A stretch of DNA of 24,096 nucleotides, taken from positions 1-24,096 of the IMG/VR virus record IMGVR_UViG_3300034061_000766, one strand, 5' to 3'. The notes beneath the pieces were generated by a model. The model saw only the letters and a program-made list of their open reading frames with translations, had not been told where the DNA came from and did not search any database. Position 1 is the first letter of the stretch. Each line of letters begins with the position of its first letter. The DNA is from a virus. Shown piece after piece: positions 4,917 to 24,096 of this stretch. Both the position numbers and the translations under genes were made by a program.

Positions 4917-5336
4917 ATGCTACTTGAAACCCCCATGTCCTTCAACTTTGCCTCATTGGACGAGGCCTTCCCAGCAGTCGACTGCGGCCACAAACCTCTG
5001 GGCTCACGCGTGATCGTACAGGTCCGCAAAGCCAAGAGCCAGACAGCCGGTGGTATCTACATCCCTGAGGAAGCACGAAAGACAGAGGCCAGCAATACCC
5101 AGATCGCTAAGGTTGTGGCGATTGGCTGCTTGGCATACAAGAATCGGAACACCATGGAGCCGTGGCCTGAAGGCGCTTGGTGTGAAGTTGGTGCCTACGT
5201 CCGTGCACCTAAATACGGCGGTGATCGTTGGACTGTGAAGTCTGGCGACGAGGAGGTCGAATTTGTGATGTTCAACGACTTAGACATTCTTGCCGAAGTC
5301 ACTGGAGATCCGACAGCGATCCGTGCATTTATCTAA
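4917..5336 (+). CDS. phage GroES-like co-chaperonin (Cpn10)
   Basis: 139 residues against about 97 for bacterial GroES; the first 25 or so are an extra N-terminal extension. The Cpn10 hallmarks are in order: PLGSRVIVQV at 27-36, the mobile loop SQTAGGIYIPEEA at 41-53 whose GGI tripeptide docks into GroEL, AKVVAIG at 64-70, the VGAYV strand at 91-95, and the FNDLDILAEV ending at 119-128. The protein would cap a host GroEL ring and enlarge or retune the folding chamber, as T4 gp31 does for its capsid protein. It is encoded between portal and scaffold, upstream of the major capsid gene, which suggests capsid folding as its job. No GroEL gene is in the window. The start at 4917 is chosen because GGAG sits 6 bases before it; an ATG at 4935 is an alternative. 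Confidence 0.9.
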   Translation: MLLETPMSFNFASLDEAFPAVDCGHKPLGSRVIVQVRKAKSQTAGGIYIPEEARKTEASNTQIAKVVAIGCLAYKNRNTMEPWPEGAWCEVGAYVRAPKYGGDRWTVKSGDEEVEFVMFNDLDILAEVTGDPTAIRAFI

Positions 5337-10064: not shown

Positions 10065-10625
10065 ATGGCCAACATCAAGATCACGGACTTACCATCAGGC
10101 ACTACGCTTGTTGGCACCGAGCTTTTTGAGTCGGTCCAATCGGCTACTTCGGTCAAGCTCAGTTCAGACCTGATCAAGGCCTTTGCCAATTCAGCCCCCA
10201 CGCTGCTGGTCGAGACTTCCAACACCAACACACCGGCTACTGCTGCGACTCTTTCGCATCAGACTTCTGGAACTCCAACTGCTGGAATTGGAACTCGCCT
10301 TGACTTTGTCTGCGAGACGGCTGCTAGCAACACGGAGATTGGTGCAAGGATTCAAGCCATCACCACCAACGTCGGTTCAGGCACTGAGGCCTTTGACCTC
10401 CAAGTCTTGCTGATGGCTGGAGGAGCAGCTGCAGCTTTGGTTGGAAAGTTCACAAGTGCTGGCAATTTTGGCATCACTGGCAACACCGTCAACGTTCCCA
10501 CAACCAGGACTCCTGCTTCGGCAACGGCTGCCGGCACTGCTGGAGACATTTGCTGGGACTCGAGCTACATCTATGTCTGCGTGGCGACCGATACGTGGAA
10601 GCGTACGGCGATCTCGACATGGTAA
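10065..10625 (+). CDS. short fibre-like or head-associated protein
   Basis: 186 residues. The N-terminus MANIKITDLPSGTTLVGTEL resembles the start of many phage fibre subunits. The central part is Thr/Ala/Gly-rich with predicted strands. The C-terminus, about residues 152-186, reads as an AAGTAGDICWDSSYIYVCVA segment followed by WKR and STW, a short beta motif recurring at the ends of phage fibres and spikes. It starts 3 bases after the previous stop and overlaps the next gene by seven bases. A trimeric short fibre or tip protein is plausible. There is no S74 chaperone here, so any folding help would have to come from elsewhere. Confidence 0.6.
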   Translation: MANIKITDLPSGTTLVGTELFESVQSATSVKLSSDLIKAFANSAPTLLVETSNTNTPATAATLSHQTSGTPTAGIGTRLDFVCETAASNTEIGARIQAITTNVGSGTEAFDLQVLLMAGGAAAALVGKFTSAGNFGITGNTVNVPTTRTPASATAAGTAGDICWDSSYIYVCVATDTWKRTAISTW

Positions 10626-10930
10626 GCGATCACAAGTTCGGCAAGACTGGCCAGACCGTATTCGTGGCCAAGGGTGGAGCTGTTTGGGCTCGCAAAGAGG
10701 GGCAAAACCCCAAAGGCGGCTTGAATCAAAAGGGCCGTGACGCCTACAACCGACAGACAGGAGGCGACCTAAAGCCTCCTGTCTCTGCCAAGCAGGCAGC
10801 AAAGAGCCCCAAAGCGGCCGGCCGACGCGACAGTTTCTGCGCGCGGATGTCTGGCATGCCGGGTCCGATGAAAGACGACAAGGGCAAACCGACCAGGAAA
10901 GCCCTTGCTCTCAACAAATGGGACTGCTGA
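10619..10930 (+). CDS. small basic KGG/Cys protein (possibly DUF6321-like)
   Basis: 103 residues from the ATG at 10619, which overlaps the end of the preceding gene; a TTG at 10550 would add a dubious leader. The protein is Lys/Arg/Gly-rich with KGG at 18-20 and 32-34. Its second half carries GRRDSFCARMSGM at 68-80 and ends KALALNKWDC. The FCARMSGM ... KW-x-C pattern, with Cys 74 and Cys 103, recalls a family of small phage proteins that I associate with DUF6321, whose function is not established; this name should be checked. The two cysteines could bind a metal or form a disulfide. It is the first of three consecutive small basic genes. Confidence 0.7.
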   Translation: MVSDHKFGKTGQTVFVAKGGAVWARKEGQNPKGGLNQKGRDAYNRQTGGDLKPPVSAKQAAKSPKAAGRRDSFCARMSGMPGPMKDDKGKPTRKALALNKWDC

Positions 10931-12875: not shown

Positions 12876-15169
12876 CCGTACCATCAAACCTCGTACCAAC
12901 GTCGATCACCCAGCTGCCCGTCGCGCCAAACCCGACGTCGTCAGCTACGATGGTCTGCGTGATTGGCGGCATCACTTACCAGGTGCCATTCATCGCCCTG
13001 CAATCCACTGTCTCTGTCCCGGCATCACGCCGGATTGACACAGGCGGTGGCCTCCAGGGCGGTGGCGACCTGTCTGCTGATCGCACCTTGAGCATTGCAA
13101 CTGGCGGCGTGACTAGCGACAAGCTGGCCGATAGCGGCGTCGCGGCCAATACGTATGGCTCTGGGACCATGATTCCAGTTCTCACAGTAGATGCCAAGGG
13201 CCTGGTCACGAGCGCGACAGAGACAGCCCTAGTCATTTCTGGGTATGTTCCTGACACCCGCCAAATCATTGCTGGCAGCGGTTTGACTGGCGGTGGCAAC
13301 CTTCAGGCCAACCGGACGCTTTCCGTTGACTTTTCAACCAATGCCCCTTTAGCCTTAGGCACTGCTGCAGCCGGATCGGCCAACAACCCAGCACGAAACG
13401 ACCACGTCCACCCCGCCCTCAACTTTGCAAACCTGACCGAATACACTGGCCTGCTGCCATTGACACGCGGCGGAACCGGCATGCAGATCACAAACCTGAC
13501 ATCCGGAGCAGTCTGGTACTCCAACGGAAGCAACGGCTTCTTACAGACGGTTCAGGGGGCAAGCGGCCAGGTTCTGGTTTCAAACGGCGCTTCTGCCCCA
13601 AGCTGGGGATCAGCCCTGATCGTCTCCAACCAGCCGGCCAACTTCGTGTATGCTGGCCCAACATCCGGATCGGCTGCGCCCACCTCTTTTCGTTTGCTCG
13701 TCAATGACGACATCCCAAACATCCTGACTGGCAAGACGCTGAATGGTTCCCTGAACAGCTTCAGCAACATTCCAAATGCTGCTCTGGTCAATTCATCCGT
13801 GACTTACAACGGTGTCAACGTGGCTTTGGGCGGATCCGGTACCATCACGGCAACAGCAACAAATGCCTTGACCATTGGGACTGGCCTGTCTGGCACCAGC
13901 TACAACGGCTCAACGGCCGTGACGATCGCGATTGACAACACTGTTGCAACCCTGACGGGCAACCAGACGCTCACAACCAAGACAATGAGCGGGTCAAACA
14001 ACACGTTCACCAACATTGGCAACTCGTCTTTGGTGAACAGCCAGATCACGCTTGGCACGACCAACATTGCCTTGGGTGGTACGTCACTCGCGCCTGTCGG
14101 TTTGACAAGCGTCACGGTGACCCAAGACCCAACGACGAACTTCCAGTTGGCAACCAAGCAGTACGTCGACACGCTTGTTTCTTCTGGTGTTCACTTCCAT
14201 GAGCCTGTCCGGGTTGAGTCCCCAATCAACCTGAATGCAACGTACAACAACGGAGCTGCTGGTGTTGGAGCCACCTTGACTAACGCAGGGACCCAAGCGG
14301 CTCTGGTCGTTGATGGTGTTGCCGTGGCTGTAAATGACCGCGTCTTGGTTTACCAGCAGACTGATCAAACGCAGAACGGCGTGTACGTCGTGACAAGCAT
14401 CGGTTCGGGATCAACCAATTGGGTTTTGACGCGTTCTGCAGACGCAGACACCTACGGGCTGGTTGGGCCAGACACACTTGGCGAAGGCTCAACATTTTTT
14501 GTTCAGCAAGGCGCAACAGGGGCCGGTGAAACCTACACCTGCAACACGGCCGGCGTCATCGTGTTTGGCACGACCAACATCACGTTTGCCCAGATTTCAG
14601 CTGCTCAGATTTACTCTGCAGGCACTGGCCTAACGCTGACCGGCACGCAATTCAGCATTTCCAATACGGCGGTTGTTGCCGGGGCTTATGGATCGGCCAC
14701 CCAGGTCGGCACGTTTACCGTCAACGCTCAAGGCCAGCTGACGGCTGCTGCCAACACTACGGTCACTCCAGCCCTTGGATCAATCACAGGCTTGGGTACA
14801 GGAGTTGCTACATTCCTTGCAACCCCGTCGTCTGCAAACCTTGCTGCCGCCGTTACAGATGAAACAGGCTCCGGGGCATTGGTGTTTGCCACCTCGCCAA
14901 CGCTGGTCACTCCAGCCCTTGGAACTCCGGCTTCAGGCGTACTGACCAATGCAACTGGCCTGCCGTTGACGACGGGCGTGACGGGAACGCTTCCAATTGC
15001 AAACGGCGGTACAAACGCCACGACAACCCCAACAGCTGGAGCCGTGTCTTACGGGACAGGCACCGCTTATTCCTTCAGCCTTGCCGGTACAACCGGTGAT
15101 TTTTTAATCTCAGGGGGTACTGGTGCCCCTACATGGACTAGTACAATTTCCGGAGGAACTTACGCATGA
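12872..15169 (+). CDS. long tail fibre protein (first of an adjacent pair)
   Basis: 765 residues, Gly/Thr/Ser/Asn/Ala-rich, no Cys-rich or enzyme motif. Internal repeats are clear: [18 protein letters not shown] (58-75) against [18 protein letters not shown] (135-152); a [28 protein letters not shown] block pair (about 296-309 and 378-391); and [18 protein letters not shown]-type blocks near 91 and 602. A more compact beta module covers about 440-578 ([10 protein letters not shown] ... FAQIS), and the familiar fibre module [21 protein letters not shown] lies at 673-693. It ends DFLISGG ... ISGGTYA. No S74 chaperone domain is present. The next fibre gene overlaps its stop by ATGA, so the two are made together. 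Confidence 0.85.
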
Positions 15170-17280
15170 CCACGATCCTGATCAAGAAAAAGGACACTGC
15201 AGGGGTCCCTGCCCCCGGTGACCTGACCAACGCGGCTGGCGGCACTGAAATTGCCGTCAACACCGCGACCAAGCGCATATACACCAAGGACAGCGGCGGA
15301 ACAGTTGTTGAACTTGGCACGAATCCAAGTGCTATCACTGGCAACTTGCTATTCAATCCAGATAATTCGCTGGACATTGGAGCTTCAGGAACAAGCCGTC
15401 CCCGCAGCCTGTTCCTTGGCACCAACATCACCGTTGGCTCCTTGACTTCCACTCGCGTGCCATACGCCTCGACAGGTGGCTTGCTGGTTGACTCAGCCAA
15501 CATGACCTTCAACGGCACACGCCTGACGGTTGCTGACCTTGCTGACTCTGGCCTGACCTCTGGTCGCGTGGTGTACTCCACCACAGGTGGTGCGCTGACT
15601 GACTCCGCAAACCTGACGTTTGATGGCACCACACTGACCGCCAACGCCCTGACCACCACATCCACGGTCACAATCAACGGCGGCACAGCCAACGGTGTGG
15701 CCTATTTGAACGGCAGTAAAGTCTTGACCACTGGGTCTGCGCTGACGTTTAACGGAACAAATCTTGGTATTGGGACGAGTTCTCCAACAGCCCCGCTGCA
15801 AGTTCAAGCCTCCTCAGGTTCGCCTTGGTTTCTTTCAAAAAATGGCACGGACGAACTTTATGTTGGCGTAAACACCAGCTTTAACGTCCCTTCGCTTGAA
15901 AGCAATACCGCCATTAGGTTTGCTGTTGGTGCTGGTTTTAGCGAACAAATGCGCCTGACCAGCACAGGTCTGGGGATTGGGACGACCAACATCCTGTCCA
16001 AGCTTACGATCTCCGGCGACATCCAGCAGGACAACGCAAACTACCTCAAAGGCAAGTTGGCAGCCGGAACTGCGACGCGCTTATTTGGTTTAAATGCCAG
16101 CAACACGCTATACATCGGTAGCATTGATGCAGACCACACTGGCGGCACGTTGTTTGTCAAAAACGGCGCAGTGCAGATGAACCTCGACTCCTCCGGCAAC
16201 CTTGGCTTGGGGGTTACGCCAAGTGCTTGGGGGAGTGCTTGGAAAGCGCTTGATGAGAGCGCAGTTGGTTCATTGGCTGCGTCACCTTCAGGCTCTGGCG
16301 ATTTAAGTTTGACCTTCAACGCCTATAACGACAACACCAACTGGCGTTACAAGTACACAGGCGACCCCGCAACGCGATACCGTCAAACGGGCGGGGTGCA
16401 CGCTTGGTTCAACGCCCCCTCCGGCACAGCAGGTAACACCATCACCTTCACTCAGGCGATGACGCTGAATTCGATCGGGCGACTTGGGGTTGGTACAACA
16501 TCACCTGCTCGCACACTTGTTATCTCAAATGGCGGCGCAGAAGGTCTGGAGATTGGCCCCGGTAACTCATCGGGCGATGCAGCCGGGGCGGTAAGTTCAA
16601 TTTACTACAACAGATCAACGGCCTCGTATGTAGAAAATTTCCAAGATGCCTCGGCGCACGTATGGAGAATAAGCGGCCCAGAACGCGCCCGTATCAACGC
16701 CAGCGGGCAATTTCTTGTTGGACTTACAAGCAGCCTTGGAACGGCCGGGACGGGTCAATTTGTTCAGGCCGGCTCTGGTGGAGCGGGCTCGGCAATCTCG
16801 GCTGATGCCACCAGTGCAACTTTTGCATACTCTGTAGCTTGGTTTGCCGCAAACCGCGGTGCAGATTCAGCTTTTAATTTCATCAACTGCACATCCGATC
16901 AGTACCTTACGCCTCAATTTAGAGTTCAGGGTAACGGAACAATCCTTGCCACAAACACGACCGTTCAGTCCATATCTGATGCTCGAACTAAAGAAAACAT
17001 TCGCGATGCCACAGACGGTCTGGAAGTTATTCTTGGGTTGCAACCGCGCAGGTTTGACTTTAAGCAGGGTTTTGGAAACGGTCGAAAAAATGTTCTTGGA
17101 TTTGTCGCGCAGGAAATAGAAACCGTGTTTCCTGACGCTGTATCCGAAGCTCATCTAGACCCGGACAAAAAAGACATTGCTTATAAAACGGTCGGCCCCG
17201 GAGAGCTTATTCCTGTGCTGGTCAAAGCCATCCAAGAACTCAAAGCAGAGTTTGACGCGTACAAATCAATCCGCCCTTAA
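15166..17280 (+). CDS. tail fibre/spike with C-terminal S74 intramolecular chaperone
   Basis: 704 residues. Residues 1-60 carry an N-terminal attachment-type segment ([15 protein letters not shown] ... [18 protein letters not shown]). Three imperfect beta repeats follow at about 97-121, 134-158 and 175-200 (xSANxTFxGTxLT pattern), then longer beta modules with LGIGTTxP-like turns. The last 101 residues are a Peptidase_S74 domain: SDARTKENI starts at Ser 604 (codon 16975-16977), with Lys 609 five residues on, the spacing of the known Ser-Lys dyad. Cleavage would fall between Ser 604 and Asp 605 after trimerisation and release the chaperone. The domain ends in a helix ([14 protein letters not shown]). 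It is probably a receptor-binding fibre. Confidence 0.9.
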
Positions 17281-19000: not shown

Positions 19001-19420
19001 ATGTTTCCACTTGCGGCACTTCTTGATGTCGGTGGTAAGCTGATCGACAAGCTGATCCCAGACCCCGAGGCCAAAGCCAAGGCGCAACTTGATCTTGCCA
19101 AGATGGCCCAAGATGGCGAGCTGGCGCGTATGGCCAACGAAACGGAGTTGTACAAAGCCGAGCAAAGCAACCTGACAGACCGCCTTAAGGCCGACATGGG
19201 CAGCGACTCTTGGCTGTCCAAGAACATTCGCCCTATGACCTTGATCTTCATCTTGCTGGCTTACTCCACGTTCGCCATGATGAGCGCATTTGACTACGAC
19301 ACCAACCAAGCCTACGTTGAGCTGCTGGGTCAGTGGGGTATGCTGATCATGTCGTTCTACTTTGGCGGCAGGACCCTTGAGAAAATCATGGACATGAAGT
19401 CCAGGAAGGAACAGAAGTGA
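19001..19420 (+). CDS. holin, Holin_3TMs (gene-transfer-release) type
   Basis: 139 residues. The N-terminus GGKLIDKLIPDPEAKAKAQL (11-30) is the characteristic opening of the Holin_3TMs family, named from gene-transfer-agent release. A charged helix follows (to about 70), then KNIRPMTLIFILLAYSTF as the first clear membrane segment (about 78-97) and WGMLIMSFYFGGRTLEKIM as the second (about 112-130), with a basic end. Holins open the inner membrane so that the endolysin reaches the peptidoglycan. It is followed by the M15 endolysin gene in a GTGA overlap, the classical holin-endolysin pairing. Confidence 0.85.
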   Translation: MFPLAALLDVGGKLIDKLIPDPEAKAKAQLDLAKMAQDGELARMANETELYKAEQSNLTDRLKADMGSDSWLSKNIRPMTLIFILLAYSTFAMMSAFDYDTNQAYVELLGQWGMLIMSFYFGGRTLEKIMDMKSRKEQK

Positions 19421-19881
19421 ACCTGACCAAAAACTTCACACTGCACGAGATGACCAAGAGCGAGACAGCTCTTCGCCATGACCTTGACAACACGCCTAGC
19501 CAAGATGTGATCAGCAACCTTCAGGCCTTGGCAGTCAACGTCCTGCAGCCAATTCGAGATCACTACGGCAAGGGCGTGAAGGTCAGCTCTGGCTTCCGTC
19601 ACCCCGAAGTCAACGCAAGAGTCGGCGGCTCAAGGACCTCTGACCACTGCCGGGGAATGGCTGCAGACATTGAAATCCCTGGGGTTTCAAATGCAGAGCT
19701 GGCTGAGTGGATTAAGGCTAATTTGCCCTTCACGCAAGTCATCCTTGAGTTTTATACTCAAGGCATTCCTGATAGTGGCTGGGTGCATGTGTCGTACGAT
19801 CCTGCTAATCTAAAAAAACAAGCCTTGACTGCCGTTAAGCAAGATGGCAAGACGGTCTATCTCAGTGGCCTAATGGCCTGA
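19417..19881 (+). CDS. endolysin, M15-family peptidase
   Basis: 154 residues from a GTG start at 19417 (AGGAAGGA 6 bases upstream), overlapping the holin stop. It is a single catalytic domain with no cell-wall-binding module or signal peptide. The M15 zinc-site residues are visible: SSGFR at 57-61, His 77 and Asp 84 in SDHCRGMAADIE, and His 124 in GWVHVSY. M15A enzymes cut peptide bonds in peptidoglycan stem peptides or cross-links. All three metal ligands are present, so it should be active. With no export signal it must rely on the holin to reach its substrate. Confidence 0.92.
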   Translation: MNLTKNFTLHEMTKSETALRHDLDNTPSQDVISNLQALAVNVLQPIRDHYGKGVKVSSGFRHPEVNARVGGSRTSDHCRGMAADIEIPGVSNAELAEWIKANLPFTQVILEFYTQGIPDSGWVHVSYDPANLKKQALTAVKQDGKTVYLSGLMA

Positions 19882-19893
19882 AGGGACACATAA

Positions 19894-20547
19894 ATGCCAC
19901 AAGCAATGACCTTTGCGTCGCTGCAAAACGACGTCCGCAGCTACCTGGAACGTGGTGCCTCTTCGGTCACGGACCCATTGGTCTATGCGCAGATTCCAAG
20001 CCTGATCAACTTTGCCGAGCGCCGCATCAGTCGCGACCTCAAGATCCAAGGCTTTCAAACGGTTGTTGTCACGAATCTGCAGGCAGGCGTAGCCGTGCTG
20101 CCTAAGCCAGACCGTTGGCGTGAGACCATCTCGATGAACATCGGGACCAGCACAAACAACAACACGCGTGTCCAGATATTTTCCAGGGCCTACGAGTACA
20201 TCAGGAGCTACTGGCCCAATGATACTCAGGTTGCTCAGCCAGTGTTCTACGCTGACTACAACTACACCAACTGGATCATTGCTCCAACGCCTGATGCTGC
20301 TTACCCAATCGAGATCCTGTACTACGAGTTGCCGGTCTTGTTGGACGAGAACACTCAGACCAACTGGCTGACTCAATACGCCCCCAACTTGCTGCTGTAT
20401 GCAACCCTGTTGGAAGCAACACCCTTCCTGAAAAACGACGAACGCATCCCAGTCTGGCAAGCCATGTATCAATCAGCCGCGCAAGCTTTGCAAGGCGAAG
20501 ATATGAGCAAGATCTTGGACCGTGGTGCCGTGAGAAACGAGGCCTAA
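19894..20547 (+). CDS. SU10-type adaptor (head-tail connector) protein
   Basis: 217 residues. The N-terminal FASLQNDVRSYLERGASSV ... PSLINFAERRISRDLKIQGF region (about 7-55) is the signature I associate with the phage adaptor family that includes the SU10 adaptor. A beta-rich middle (about 55-150, with VLPKPDRWRETISM and IAPTPDAAYPIEILYYELP) and a helical C-terminus (APNLLLYATLLEATPFLK) complete it. It would form a ring below the portal, joining it to the nozzle. It is encoded after the lysis genes and before a fibre-like and the nozzle gene, so this second tail block may assemble the distal tail. This is a second adaptor besides the one at 11587. Confidence 0.8.
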   Translation: MPQAMTFASLQNDVRSYLERGASSVTDPLVYAQIPSLINFAERRISRDLKIQGFQTVVVTNLQAGVAVLPKPDRWRETISMNIGTSTNNNTRVQIFSRAYEYIRSYWPNDTQVAQPVFYADYNYTNWIIAPTPDAAYPIEILYYELPVLLDENTQTNWLTQYAPNLLLYATLLEATPFLKNDERIPVWQAMYQSAAQALQGEDMSKILDRGAVRNEA

Positions 20548-20548
20548 C

Positions 20549-21739
20549 ATGACCACCTTCACCAACATCTTTGGCGGCAGCAACATCTCTCCAGCAGAGA
20601 TCAGCTACGCCGAAGTCTCCCTGACAGCCGACACCACTTACGACTGGGCTCTTGAAACAGCGCCTTCAGCCAACCTGATTGCTGGCATCATGGATGTCAC
20701 GGCAACAGCAGGCCCTTGGAGCCTGACTTTGCCAAGCGCATTGGAGGCATCAACTGGCCAAGCCATCTTGTTCAACAACGTTGGCTCAGAGACGTTCATC
20801 ATCAGGAATGCTGCAGGCGTTCAGGTTGCAGCACCTGTCAGCGGTTCAGTTTGGCAGATCTACCTGACAGACAACACAACAACCGGCGGTACATGGGAAG
20901 CCTTCTTGTATGGCGCGCAAGTGTCGGCCGCAAACGCAGCTTCTCTTGCTGGGACTGGCTTGGTTGCCATTGGCACTCTTCTGTCGCTGTCAATGCCTGT
21001 TACTTTCTTTGGAACCAGCTACACAGCTGGCGTCGATGATCGAGCCAAGACCTACATCTGGAATGGAGGAGCCGGCGCCCTTACCATGTCGACCGCAGGA
21101 ACCCTTGGAAACAACTGGTTCTTCCAGCTGCGCAATGAGGGCACTGGCGCCTTGGTTGTTGATCCCCCAGGGTCTCAAACAATCAACGGCTCTGCAACCC
21201 TGACTTTCCAGCCAGGTGACTCGGCAATCATCTTCACGGATGGCAACAACTTCTACACCCTTGGTTACGGCCAGTCGCCTGTCTTTGCATTTGACTACAC
21301 CTCGATCAACGTTGCGGGTTCTGGCAACTATGTCTTGTCTGGAAGCGAACTCAACAGGATTGCTTACAACTTCACGGGCGTCTTGACCGGCAACCGTACG
21401 ATCATCGTGCCCCAAACCGTCCAGCAGTACTGGGCGGCCAACAACACGACAGGCCCCTACACCCTGACTGTCAAGACTTCGATTGCCGCCGGCTACACAG
21501 TCAACCAGGGCTCTCGGGCCATCCTGTACTGCGACAGCACCAACGTAGTGGCGGCTGATACCGGTGGCGTGGCTGTTCCCATCAGCGTCTCTGACGGCGG
21601 TACTGGAGCCACGACGGCTGGCAACGCCCTGATCAACTTGGGCGGAACAGCAACGGGTATTGCAGTGTTTACTGCCGTCTCCCAGGCAGCGGCTCAAGCT
21701 TCTTTGGGTCTTGATCCAATCCAAGGCGGAACCTACTGA
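20549..21739 (+). CDS. tail fibre/appendage-like structural protein
   Basis: 396 residues, Thr/Ser/Gly/Asn-rich, beta. The N-terminus MTTFTNIFGGSNISPAEISY is followed by strand-turn repeats, each with a hydrophobic-Asn-Gly pattern (NNVGSETFIIRNAAGVQV; LRNEGTGALVVDPPGSQTI), suggesting a trimeric beta prism. The final 55 residues have VSDGGTGATTAGNALINLGG (about 347-366) and end GLDPIQGGTY, close in style to the end of the long fibre at 12872-15169. No chaperone domain is present. It starts one base after the adaptor stop and its own stop shares a base with the nozzle start (TGATG), so it probably attaches around the adaptor or nozzle. Confidence 0.75.
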   Translation: MTTFTNIFGGSNISPAEISYAEVSLTADTTYDWALETAPSANLIAGIMDVTATAGPWSLTLPSALEASTGQAILFNNVGSETFIIRNAAGVQVAAPVSGSVWQIYLTDNTTTGGTWEAFLYGAQVSAANAASLAGTGLVAIGTLLSLSMPVTFFGTSYTAGVDDRAKTYIWNGGAGALTMSTAGTLGNNWFFQLRNEGTGALVVDPPGSQTINGSATLTFQPGDSAIIFTDGNNFYTLGYGQSPVFAFDYTSINVAGSGNYVLSGSELNRIAYNFTGVLTGNRTIIVPQTVQQYWAANNTTGPYTLTVKTSIAAGYTVNQGSRAILYCDSTNVVAADTGGVAVPISVSDGGTGATTAGNALINLGGTATGIAVFTAVSQAAAQASLGLDPIQGGTY

Positions 21740-23385
21740 TGGCCACAACTCCAATCGTCCTTAAGTCACTGCCCGGCATCAAGCGTGATGGCACCCGGTA
21801 CGAGGGCGACTACCACGTCGACGGACAATGGGTCCGTTGGCAGCGGGGCCTTCCCAGAAAGGTTGGAGGCTACTCGGTAGTCAACCGCTACCTGACTGAA
21901 ATCAGTCGCGGGGTCAAGACGTTTACGCAAGACAGCCAGACCTACTTTCACTCTGGCAGTGCCGACTTCCTTCAGCGCTTCACTCTGGACCCAAGCGGCA
22001 ACTCGAGCCTGATAACTGACCGGACCCCGATTACGTACAACGTGAGCGACGAAAACCTCTGGCAGTTTGACGTGATCTACGACAGCCAGTCGATTCCAGC
22101 CGCCAACATGATCGTCGCCCAAGTGGCTCCCAACTCAAGCTGCCTCTGCAACACGAGCGGCGGCCAGTTGTTCATTGGCTCGATGACAGGGACTGATCCG
22201 CTGACTGAAATCACCACCTTCCCAGCTGGCGTCAGCGTGACGGGTGGCGTGGTCTCCTTGCACCCATACCTGATGTATTTTGGCAACGATGGCACTGTCG
22301 GATGGTCCGTGGCCGGAGCCCCAACTGATTTGACAGGCGTAGGCTCAGGGAGTGCGCGCGTAGCAGGCCAAAAGATCGTCCGTGGCCTTGCCCTTAGGGG
22401 TGGCCCAGGAAACGCGCCAGCGGGCCTCTTTTGGAGCGCAGACGCTGTTATCCGGGCTTCCTTTGTCGGCGGCCAAGAGATCTTCCAATTTGACACAATC
22501 AGCCCATTTTCAAGTATCCTGTCCGCCAACTCCGTTATCGAGTACGACGGCCAGTACTTCTGGTTGGGAACTGACCGCATGCTGATGTTCAACGGTGTGG
22601 TCCGCGAGATCCCCAACAACTTGAACATCAACTACTTCTATGATGGTTTGAACCGGGCAGAGGCCCAAAAGGTCTGGGCTTTCAAGGTTCCAAGGTACGG
22701 CGAGATTTGGTGGTGCTACCCAAGGGGCAATGCTACCGAATGCACGCACGCCATCATCTACAACGTCCGTGAGAACACTTGGTATGACACCGAGCTGCCT
22801 AATGGTGGACGGACGGCTGGGGAGTGGTCTCCTTTGTACGCTGCGCCCCTCTTGTGCGGCCTGCAAACGTCCACTTTTGTCCCGAACAACCGCATCACCG
22901 AGTCCGGCGACCTTCGGGTCACCGAAGATGAAGACCAGCGGATCTTGGTCCCGCAAGAAGGCTATAAGGTCTGGCAGCACGAGCATGACGTCAACGAGGT
23001 TGATGGCCAGTTCATCACGGCTGTTCCGTCGTTCTTCGAGACAGCTGACATGAGCCTGCTGACCCCTTCTGGCGGGTCAAAAAACAAGTGGATTCGGGTC
23101 GAGTCCATTGAGCCTGACTTCATCCAGTCTGAAAACATGACCGTCCAGTTGACCGGACGGGCCAATGCCAAGGCTCTTGAAGTCCCTGGTCCTGAGCGCA
23201 CCATCTTCGCCAAACCGTCAACTCCTTACGAGCAGGTGGTTTGGTTCAAAGAAGAGCGCCGCGAGCTTCGGTTTAAGTTCACCTCCAACACCATCAACGG
23301 TGACTACCAGATGGGCCAGGTCATTGCCCACGTTGGTGAAGCCGACGGAAACGTACTCGGTGGCGTGGCAGGGGGTTCCACGTGA
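21739..23385 (+). CDS. tail nozzle / DNA-stabilisation protein, P22 gp10-like
   Basis: 548 residues. The opening LKSLPGIKRDGTRYEGDYHVDGQWVR (from residue 8) and LPRKVGGYSVV are typical of P22 gp10-type packaged-DNA stabilisation proteins, which form the tail nozzle. The next 300 residues contain repeated blade-like strands (LMYFGNDGTVGWSVAG; GLFWSADAVIRAS; YFWLGTDRMLMFNGVVREI), consistent with a beta-propeller. A C-terminal beta domain has WIRVESIEPDF (about 450-460) and WFKEERRELRFKF (about 510-522). It seals the DNA channel and contributes the lower tail. It couples to both neighbours by overlap. This is the strongest evidence for a short-tailed virion. Confidence 0.88.
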   Translation: MATTPIVLKSLPGIKRDGTRYEGDYHVDGQWVRWQRGLPRKVGGYSVVNRYLTEISRGVKTFTQDSQTYFHSGSADFLQRFTLDPSGNSSLITDRTPITYNVSDENLWQFDVIYDSQSIPAANMIVAQVAPNSSCLCNTSGGQLFIGSMTGTDPLTEITTFPAGVSVTGGVVSLHPYLMYFGNDGTVGWSVAGAPTDLTGVGSGSARVAGQKIVRGLALRGGPGNAPAGLFWSADAVIRASFVGGQEIFQFDTISPFSSILSANSVIEYDGQYFWLGTDRMLMFNGVVREIPNNLNINYFYDGLNRAEAQKVWAFKVPRYGEIWWCYPRGNATECTHAIIYNVRENTWYDTELPNGGRTAGEWSPLYAAPLLCGLQTSTFVPNNRITESGDLRVTEDEDQRILVPQEGYKVWQHEHDVNEVDGQFITAVPSFFETADMSLLTPSGGSKNKWIRVESIEPDFIQSENMTVQLTGRANAKALEVPGPERTIFAKPSTPYEQVVWFKEERRELRFKFTSNTINGDYQMGQVIAHVGEADGNVLGGVAGGST

Positions 23386-23609
23386 TCACGCAGCCTGTTA
23401 TAATCGGGTTGCGCGATTGGGCCGATCAGATCGTTATGGACCTGTCCACCTATGGCGTACTTGCAAGGCTAGACGATGAAGACAAGTGGCAGGAGTGGGC
23501 TCTACAGTTCTGCGCAATATCAGGACTCAGCCAAAAGAACATTCCAAATCCATTTGACTTTGCCGACTGGCGTACCTGGGCACAACGCTTTGTACAAATG
23601 GTGGACTAA
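23382..23609 (+). CDS. small Trp-rich protein of unknown function
   Basis: 75 residues from a GTG at 23382 overlapping the nozzle stop (GTGA). It is helical and Trp-rich, with DKWQEWALQFCAISGL (34-49) and DWRTWAQRFVQMV at the end. No signal peptide or membrane segment. Its stop shares a base with the following acyl carrier protein start (TAATG). Such small proteins next to P22-type nozzle genes are usually minor virion or assembly proteins, but I recognise no family. Confidence 0.65.
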   Translation: MITQPVIIGLRDWADQIVMDLSTYGVLARLDDEDKWQEWALQFCAISGLSQKNIPNPFDFADWRTWAQRFVQMVD

Positions 23610-23899
23610 TGACCGATCAAGAATTCATCCAGCTGCTGAATGATGTAGCTAAAAAGGCCAAACCGTTCAATAGTGAGCTGGCTCCTATTGACTCAATGGA
23701 CATGGTTCTCAAGGAAACTGGCCTGGATAGCCTCGACATGTTGATGTGCACTGTGTATCTGTGCGAGATCTACGACGTAGAGGATGAAAAAAGCAAGGAG
23801 ATGCTGGGAGAAAGCCCACAAGACCTGCTCAACTTCTTGAAGGAATGGGGACGACGTCAGCCTGCTGACTTGGCACAAGCCAAGGAGTGGTTTGTATGA
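23609..23899 (+). CDS. phage-encoded acyl carrier protein homologue
   Basis: 96 residues. The core KETGLDSLDMLMCTVYLCEIYDV is spread over residues 35-57 and matches the acyl carrier signature (x-D-S-L-D-x), with Ser 41 (codon 23729-23731) as the phosphopantetheine attachment site. Helix 3/4 follows with ESPQDLLNFLKEW (68-80). The four-helix length (about 80 residues) plus a 16-residue tail fits an AcpP-like fold. The holo-protein would carry an acyl or aminoacyl group on the thiol arm added by a host transferase. It overlaps the upstream gene (TAATG) and the downstream gene (ATGA), so it belongs to the phage operon. Its usual acidic helix II is less acidic than in E. coli AcpP, which may narrow its partners. 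Confidence 0.85.
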   Translation: MTDQEFIQLLNDVAKKAKPFNSELAPIDSMDMVLKETGLDSLDMLMCTVYLCEIYDVEDEKSKEMLGESPQDLLNFLKEWGRRQPADLAQAKEWFV

Positions 23900-24096
23900 G
23901 AATCTTCCTCACAGAAAGCCGCACCGCGTGCACTGAGGAAACTACCCTCTTCCAAGACCATACTTTCCCCCAAAAAGTCCACCTGTTCCCAGAATCTTAC
24001 GCTCGGATCAAGACGGGCCTGGTCTATCCGGCACACAAGGTAGCCGAAAAGGTCCTGGATGCCGAGCTCCTGAAGCGCCTCAGGGAGACACAGACT
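23896..24096 (+). CDS. 5' part of an unrecognised gene, cut by the window edge
   Basis: The ATG at 23896 overlaps the carrier protein stop (ATGA) and has GGAG at 23884-23887. The frame stays open to the last base, 67 codons. The product begins MRIFLTESRTACTEETTLFQ and continues with HLFPESYARIKTGLVYP and EKVLDAELLKRL. No membrane segment or known motif appears in this part. Being coupled to an acyl carrier protein, it could be an enzyme or target that uses the carrier, but nothing visible identifies it. Confidence 0.7.
   Translation, partial: MRIFLTESRTACTEETTLFQDHTFPQKVHLFPESYARIKTGLVYPAHKVAEKVLDAELLKRLRETQT

Follow-up and report, generated by a model that had tools for sequence, protein, structure and literature searches.

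The occurrence of a putative acyl carrier protein (ACP) gene next to the virion genes of an uncultured virus raises the question of whether the encoded protein is truly a carrier and, if so, what use a phage could have for acyl-group chemistry at this position in its genome. The window (the whole stretch of DNA that was analysed, 24,096 bases) is the entire virus record, and the ACP gene therefore lies approximately 200 bases short of the record end (Table 1). The original prediction described a 96-residue ORF with a DSLDML carrier motif at Ser41, and this ORF is present as claimed, with the motif lying within TGLDSLDML. Its coupling to both neighbours by overlaps was also confirmed, as it shares 1 nt (TAATG) with the end of the upstream 75-aa gene and 4 nt (ATGA) with the start of the downstream gene. 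The identities given to these neighbours need revision: nothing marks the product of the upstream gene, which had been called a minor virion gene, as a virion protein, and the downstream gene, which had been listed as unknown, can be assigned to the beta-ketoacyl-ACP synthases from matches of its close relatives to PF00109 and PF02801. The first scan recovered 38 full-length viral homologues of the ACP, and omega was ~0.03-0.09, a signal that vanished in shifted frames. Together with the invariance of Ser41, these results indicate that the ORF is a real gene.

Table 1. Features of the window, with positions, strand and the basis of each assignment (KS, beta-ketoacyl-ACP synthase; RLK, Caulobacter phage RLK).
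Feature	Position	Strand	Basis
GroES-type co-chaperonin, among head genes, with portal and capsid genes on either side	4917..5336		PF00166, E 7e-12
126-aa protein with DUF6321	10550..10930		E 1.6e-27
704-aa protein with C-terminal Peptidase_S74 intramolecular chaperone domain of the type seen in phage tail fibres/spikes	15166..17280		
Probable endolysin, peptidase M15 family	19417..19881		PF08291
217-aa virion structural protein, PHROG 2941, RLK gp070 homologue (63% identity)	19894..20547	+	PHROG, homology
396-aa protein, matches N-terminal half of RLK gp069	20549..21739	+	homology
548-aa virion structural protein, PHROG 3287, RLK gp068 homologue	21739..23385	+	PHROG, homology
75-aa gene, left cassette boundary, RLK gp067 homologue (35% identity)	23382..23609	+	homology
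ACP homologue, 96 aa, gene 1 of ACP-KS-X cassette	23609..23899	+	AlphaFold2 fold, Foldseek/VIA-align, profile matches
Ser41 codon AGC, predicted 4'-phosphopantetheine attachment site, N-terminus of helix II	23729..23731	+	DS[LM]D motif, conservation, model
FabF-like KS, 5' end, 67 codons, truncated by window end	23896..24096	+	full-length relatives L002, L035; L001

The predicted fold, profile matches to solved ACPs and the conservation of Ser41 all support the identification of the protein as an ACP homologue. AlphaFold2, supplied with an alignment of 24 viral sequences, returned a model with a pLDDT of 92.9 and a pTM of 0.85, in which AlphaFold2 and VIA-align recover the four-helix ACP fold and Ser41 stands at the start of helix II (residues 41-54). 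Carrier proteins were the best rows for this model in both Foldseek and VIA-align (VIA-align Z up to 8.4, covering 77 of the 96 residues), and the best 50 of the re-aligned PDB chains all appear to be carrier proteins. Profile searches of the PDB agreed: when built from 24 close viral sequences and MW202545, the profile returned almost exclusively ACP chains, and with 28 diverse relatives the best ACP chain had an E value of 2.8e-4 and nearly all of the matches listed were ACPs. Asp40, Ser41 and Asp43 were invariant in all 99 distinct homologues, with Leu or Met following the Ser. The AcpP-type carrier identity that had been proposed is thus borne out by the structure prediction, the profile matches and the conservation of Ser41; neither a non-ACP fold accompanied by a missing PF00550 match nor a variable Ser41, which had been named as grounds for rejecting it, was encountered.

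The suggested search against PF00550 was negative for the window ACP, which had no match when searched against Pfam as a single sequence. Eight of 28 homologues matched PF00550 at E values up to 1 (best 0.0012), and among the ten homologues scored in bits the best reached 18.2, below the gathering cut-off of 20.8; the PHROG match of the window protein was to an unnamed family and weak. Because even the scored homologues fall below the threshold, the family appears to be a divergent one that the standard model misses, and it is on fold and active site, not on membership of PF00550, that the protein is classified as a divergent carrier. These same PF00550 results are what might favour a DSL motif arising by chance in a small helical phage protein that is not a carrier at all. 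Such an origin is rejected for the motif, and the non-carrier explanation as a whole nearly excluded, by the ACP fold, the profile matches, the Ser invariance and the adjoining ketoacyl-ACP synthase. Compared to AcpP-type ACPs (PF00550), the window protein has the same helical fold, a DSLD motif opening helix II and the invariant Ser, but it shows only ~15-20% identity to solved ACPs in structural alignments, falls below the Pfam cut-off, has a longer C-terminal tail with a conserved Pro, and belongs to a phage-only family linked to two further genes, KS and X. Two other matches were set aside: iodotyrosine deiodinase, the top PDB match of the single ACP sequence (E 0.28), is considered noise and is replaced by ACP chains when a profile is used, and matches to colicin-immunity family PF01320 are weak and cover ~20 residues.

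The downstream gene could be followed past the window end in related sequences. Contig L001 is 97% identical to the window across 6,015 bases, and in it the KS frame runs on through the active-site Cys, while the full-length relatives L002 and L035 match PF00109 with 33.0-33.2 bits and PF02801 with 60.8-61.0 bits (cut-off 20.8). FabF (beta-ketoacyl-ACP synthase II, TIGR03150) was the best NCBIfam model, with scores of 111-123 bits that lie below the equivalog cut-off of 493.75, and the best PDB matches were solved FabF structures. The catalytic residues Cys130, His273, Lys301 and His306 align with those of the FabF structures and were invariant in 98 of 98 distinct sequences. Taken together, these features identify the gene, from its sequence, as encoding a FabF-type beta-ketoacyl-ACP synthase. 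However, the protein (373 aa) has a shorter and divergent N-terminal part, and Met360 occupies the position of the FabF gating Phe (GMGN in place of the GFGG gating loop); therefore, its predicted chemistry may differ from that of FabF. KS matches in phage records from Listeria, Enterococcus, Staphylococcus and Pseudomonas (24-29%) were set aside; they carry no annotation and resemble host FabF on short contigs. The original suggestion that the phage may divert acyl groups is strengthened by the presence of a ketoacyl synthase directly downstream of the ACP.

Comparison of genome neighbourhoods in related phages, which had been proposed as a further check, showed the ACP to be the opening gene of a conserved three-gene cassette, ACP-KS-X. 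The ACP lies directly upstream in 97 of the 98 distinct KS genes, and at the sole exception (L129) the contig edge falls inside the ACP, whose C-terminus is still readable. Gene X follows KS at 92 of these 98 loci; X was not recognised at L005, L019, L033 and L128, where the contig ends at or just past KS, nor at L185 and L213. The ACP is upstream of X in 125 of 130 distinct X sequences, the other five of which are near a contig start, and in all 124 distinct X genes for which the upstream region is present (away from contig starts). X is thus the constant partner of the ACP. Many of these X loci were retrieved with X as the sole query, and the linkage therefore does not arise from ACP-based searching. 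It could partly come from operon inertia. Computation also showed purifying selection on all three genes.

The third protein itself (~143-154 aa) had no recognisable family in a Pfam search. Its model is of low confidence (mean pLDDT 47.8), with a GNAT-like order of elements; the first four Foldseek matches were GNATs, at E 7e-3 and weaker, and the VIA Z reached 6.5, a level typical of common arrangements. These results hint that X may be a GNAT-fold acyltransferase. GNAT-fold enzymes that use acyl-ACP as donor include the LuxI-type AHL synthases and FeeM. X possibly shares the fold and the donor with these enzymes, and TofI was among the structural matches of its low-confidence model; no sequence similarity of X to acyl-ACP-dependent GNAT-fold acyltransferases was found. 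An internal virion protein like T7 gp13 was also considered for X and rejected (hhalign probability of 0.2% against the single gp13 sequence).

The genomic setting of the cassette is most clearly seen by comparison to Caulobacter phage RLK, in which gp070, gp069, gp068 and gp067 are followed directly by gp066 and gp065, and ACP, KS and X are absent. Homologues of gp066 and gp065 are the genes that come after X, which places the cassette between the gp067 and gp066 homologues; the gene directly after X encodes a large putative ejection protein. KS is represented by at least 557 matching stretches in IMG/VR. A pattern-based scan of the genomes of 84,980 species, which diverged cellular relatives may escape, yielded one KS locus, on a phage-like contig, and scanning the contigs of species' genomes with an alignment of close KS sequences yielded none. 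The contig with this one locus is assigned to a Balneolaceae MAG (L151, JAGYJQ010000016.1) and contains ACP, KS, X and the phage-type gene that follows them. It looks phage-derived because its ACP, X and following gene are the same, and it probably represents phage DNA that was either binned with a Balneolaceae genome or is integrated there, making it a possible lead to a host.

Phage ACPs have been reported before as auxiliary metabolic genes, in Erythrobacter phage vB_EliS-R6L (PMC5463345) and Alteromonas phage R22Y (PMC11705849), and roseobacter prophages carry fabG-acpP-fabF in the order of the bacterial fab operon (PMC8224337). The present locus resembles these in having an ACP gene in a phage, and the roseobacter prophages also pair fabF with acpP. 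It is possible that ACP and KS work with host FabD, FabG, FabZ and FabI to boost or retune fatty acid elongation in the host, with effects on membrane supply or fluidity, X being unrelated. An ACP and a FabF-type KS both belong to the core of type II fatty acid synthesis, the published phage ACPs have been interpreted in this way (PMC8224337, PMC11705849, PMC5463345), and the absent fab genes could come from the host. However, auxiliary genes are usually recent copies of host genes, whereas this ACP and KS are each highly diverged and phage-specific as families, the one locus in the species' genomes being on a phage-like contig. In addition, the two genes sit inside the virion module, X always has the ACP upstream where that region is present, and ACP and X outlast KS (see below), all of which make an auxiliary metabolic role unlikely. 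Unlike the roseobacter prophage set, the cassette lies in a virion module, lacks fabG and includes X. None of the reported phage ACPs (vB_EliS-R6L, R22Y, roseobacter prophages) was matched when the window ACP was searched by tblastn against the phage collection.

One clade (L024-L027, L059, L061, L064, L075; support 94/90 in the ACP tree) has lost KS by deletion, with a short remnant left behind. Within it Ser41 is kept, omega is 0.04-0.10 for ACP and 0.04-0.09 for X, and synonymous sites between the two sub-clades are near or at saturation. The survival of ACP and X shows that KS is not essential to them, and the purifying selection acting on both indicates that the ACP has a use independent of a phage KS. 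In these genomes a stretch of ~72 nt upstream of X, which stems from the part of KS around KTHG, is 82% identical between the sub-clades even though ACP synonymous sites are near saturation; this conserved remnant is found at L025:4683-4815, L027:4680-4775, L064:8277-8330 and in relatives. It may be a leader for X or a micro-peptide.

The KS-less clade also bears on two further explanations of the cassette. In the first, the ACP and X (perhaps with KS) take part in the assembly of virion or ejection proteins, the ACP acting as a docking subunit as it does in MukBEF, respiratory complex I and cysteine desulfurase complexes. The location in the virion module beside putative ejection genes (PHROG 4287 match), the persistence of ACP and X after KS loss, and the occurrence of known moonlighting ACPs among the structural matches to the ACP model would all fit such a co-option. 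The invariance of the KS catalytic residues across diverse sequences argues instead for catalysis wherever KS is present, and the retention of Ser41 in the KS-less clade is neutral, as docking can still need holo-ACP; overall, a structural role is regarded as distinctly improbable. In the second, the cassette acts as a decoy: by drawing off malonyl or acyl groups, or FabD, it would block host fatty acid synthesis late in infection. In E. coli, fatty acid synthesis or growth is inhibited when FabF or ACP is overproduced, which is consistent with such a shut-off, as is the finding of no downstream fab enzymes in 18 phage records. Yet a decoy would not need strict conservation of all the catalytic residues, which the whole KS set retains, and the loss of KS with retention of the ACP would require that the ACP alone suffice, making this explanation very unlikely.

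The preferred reading, judged probable if only modestly so, is a phage-specific acyl cassette that runs in line with the virion genes. In this reading a host enzyme activates the ACP, acyl chains are condensed or sorted by KS, and the acyl-ACP is used by X. Searches for AcpS (PF01648) in 13 phage records, some of them possibly fragments, gave no match, and neither did searches for FabG, FabD and FabA/FabZ in 18 phage records, some of which may likewise be fragments; the host would therefore have to activate the carrier and provide for any full elongation cycle. A host AcpS or Sfp-type enzyme would attach phosphopantetheine to Ser41, a step proposed from established ACP biochemistry and from the lack of PF01648 matches in the phage records searched. 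The position of the genes suggests that the cassette is used late in infection, when KS would load an acyl group and condense it with, or transfer it to, the carrier, and the resulting chain would either have to be finished by host enzymes or be used directly. More tentatively, X, perhaps through a GNAT fold, might pass the acyl group from acyl-ACP to a virion or ejection protein or to a small amine. After KS loss, host KS enzymes could still feed the carrier, which would explain the persistence of ACP and X in the KS-less clade. The acyl group may be destined for virion or ejection proteins, for the membrane or for a small molecule. It is also conceivable, though doubtful at present, that a widespread phage lineage has an acyl-transfer system of its own, consisting of a carrier, a ketosynthase and a GNAT-like transferase that depends on the ACP. 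As part of particle maturation or genome delivery, this system would acylate virion or ejection proteins or produce a small acylated molecule.

While ACPs are already known in phages, no paper describing ACP, KS and X as a cassette within a virion module was found in the open-licence literature, and the arrangement is apparently unreported there. A partly annotated example is the uncultured phage MW202545.1 (Manatee Spring), which carries all three cassette genes at the corresponding location (ACP 37.5%, KS ~55% and X 35% identity); one gene is annotated as 3-oxoacyl-ACP synthase, and ACP and X bear only the label hypothetical. Phage ACPs have so far been listed singly, as auxiliary genes of unclear function. 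In contrast, the cassette is a conserved block in the virion module of a large group of uncultured phages, combining a carrier, a condensing enzyme whose catalytic residues are intact and a tightly linked third protein, and its retention beside particle-building genes in hundreds of related phage sequences suggests that these phages possess a dedicated acyl-group chemistry of their own. What had been a vague suggestion thereby becomes a concrete biochemical system of three expressible small proteins, for which the KS-less clade provides a built-in natural control. If the product is indeed an acylated virion protein or a small molecule, the cassette would represent a new viral use of fatty-acid chemistry.
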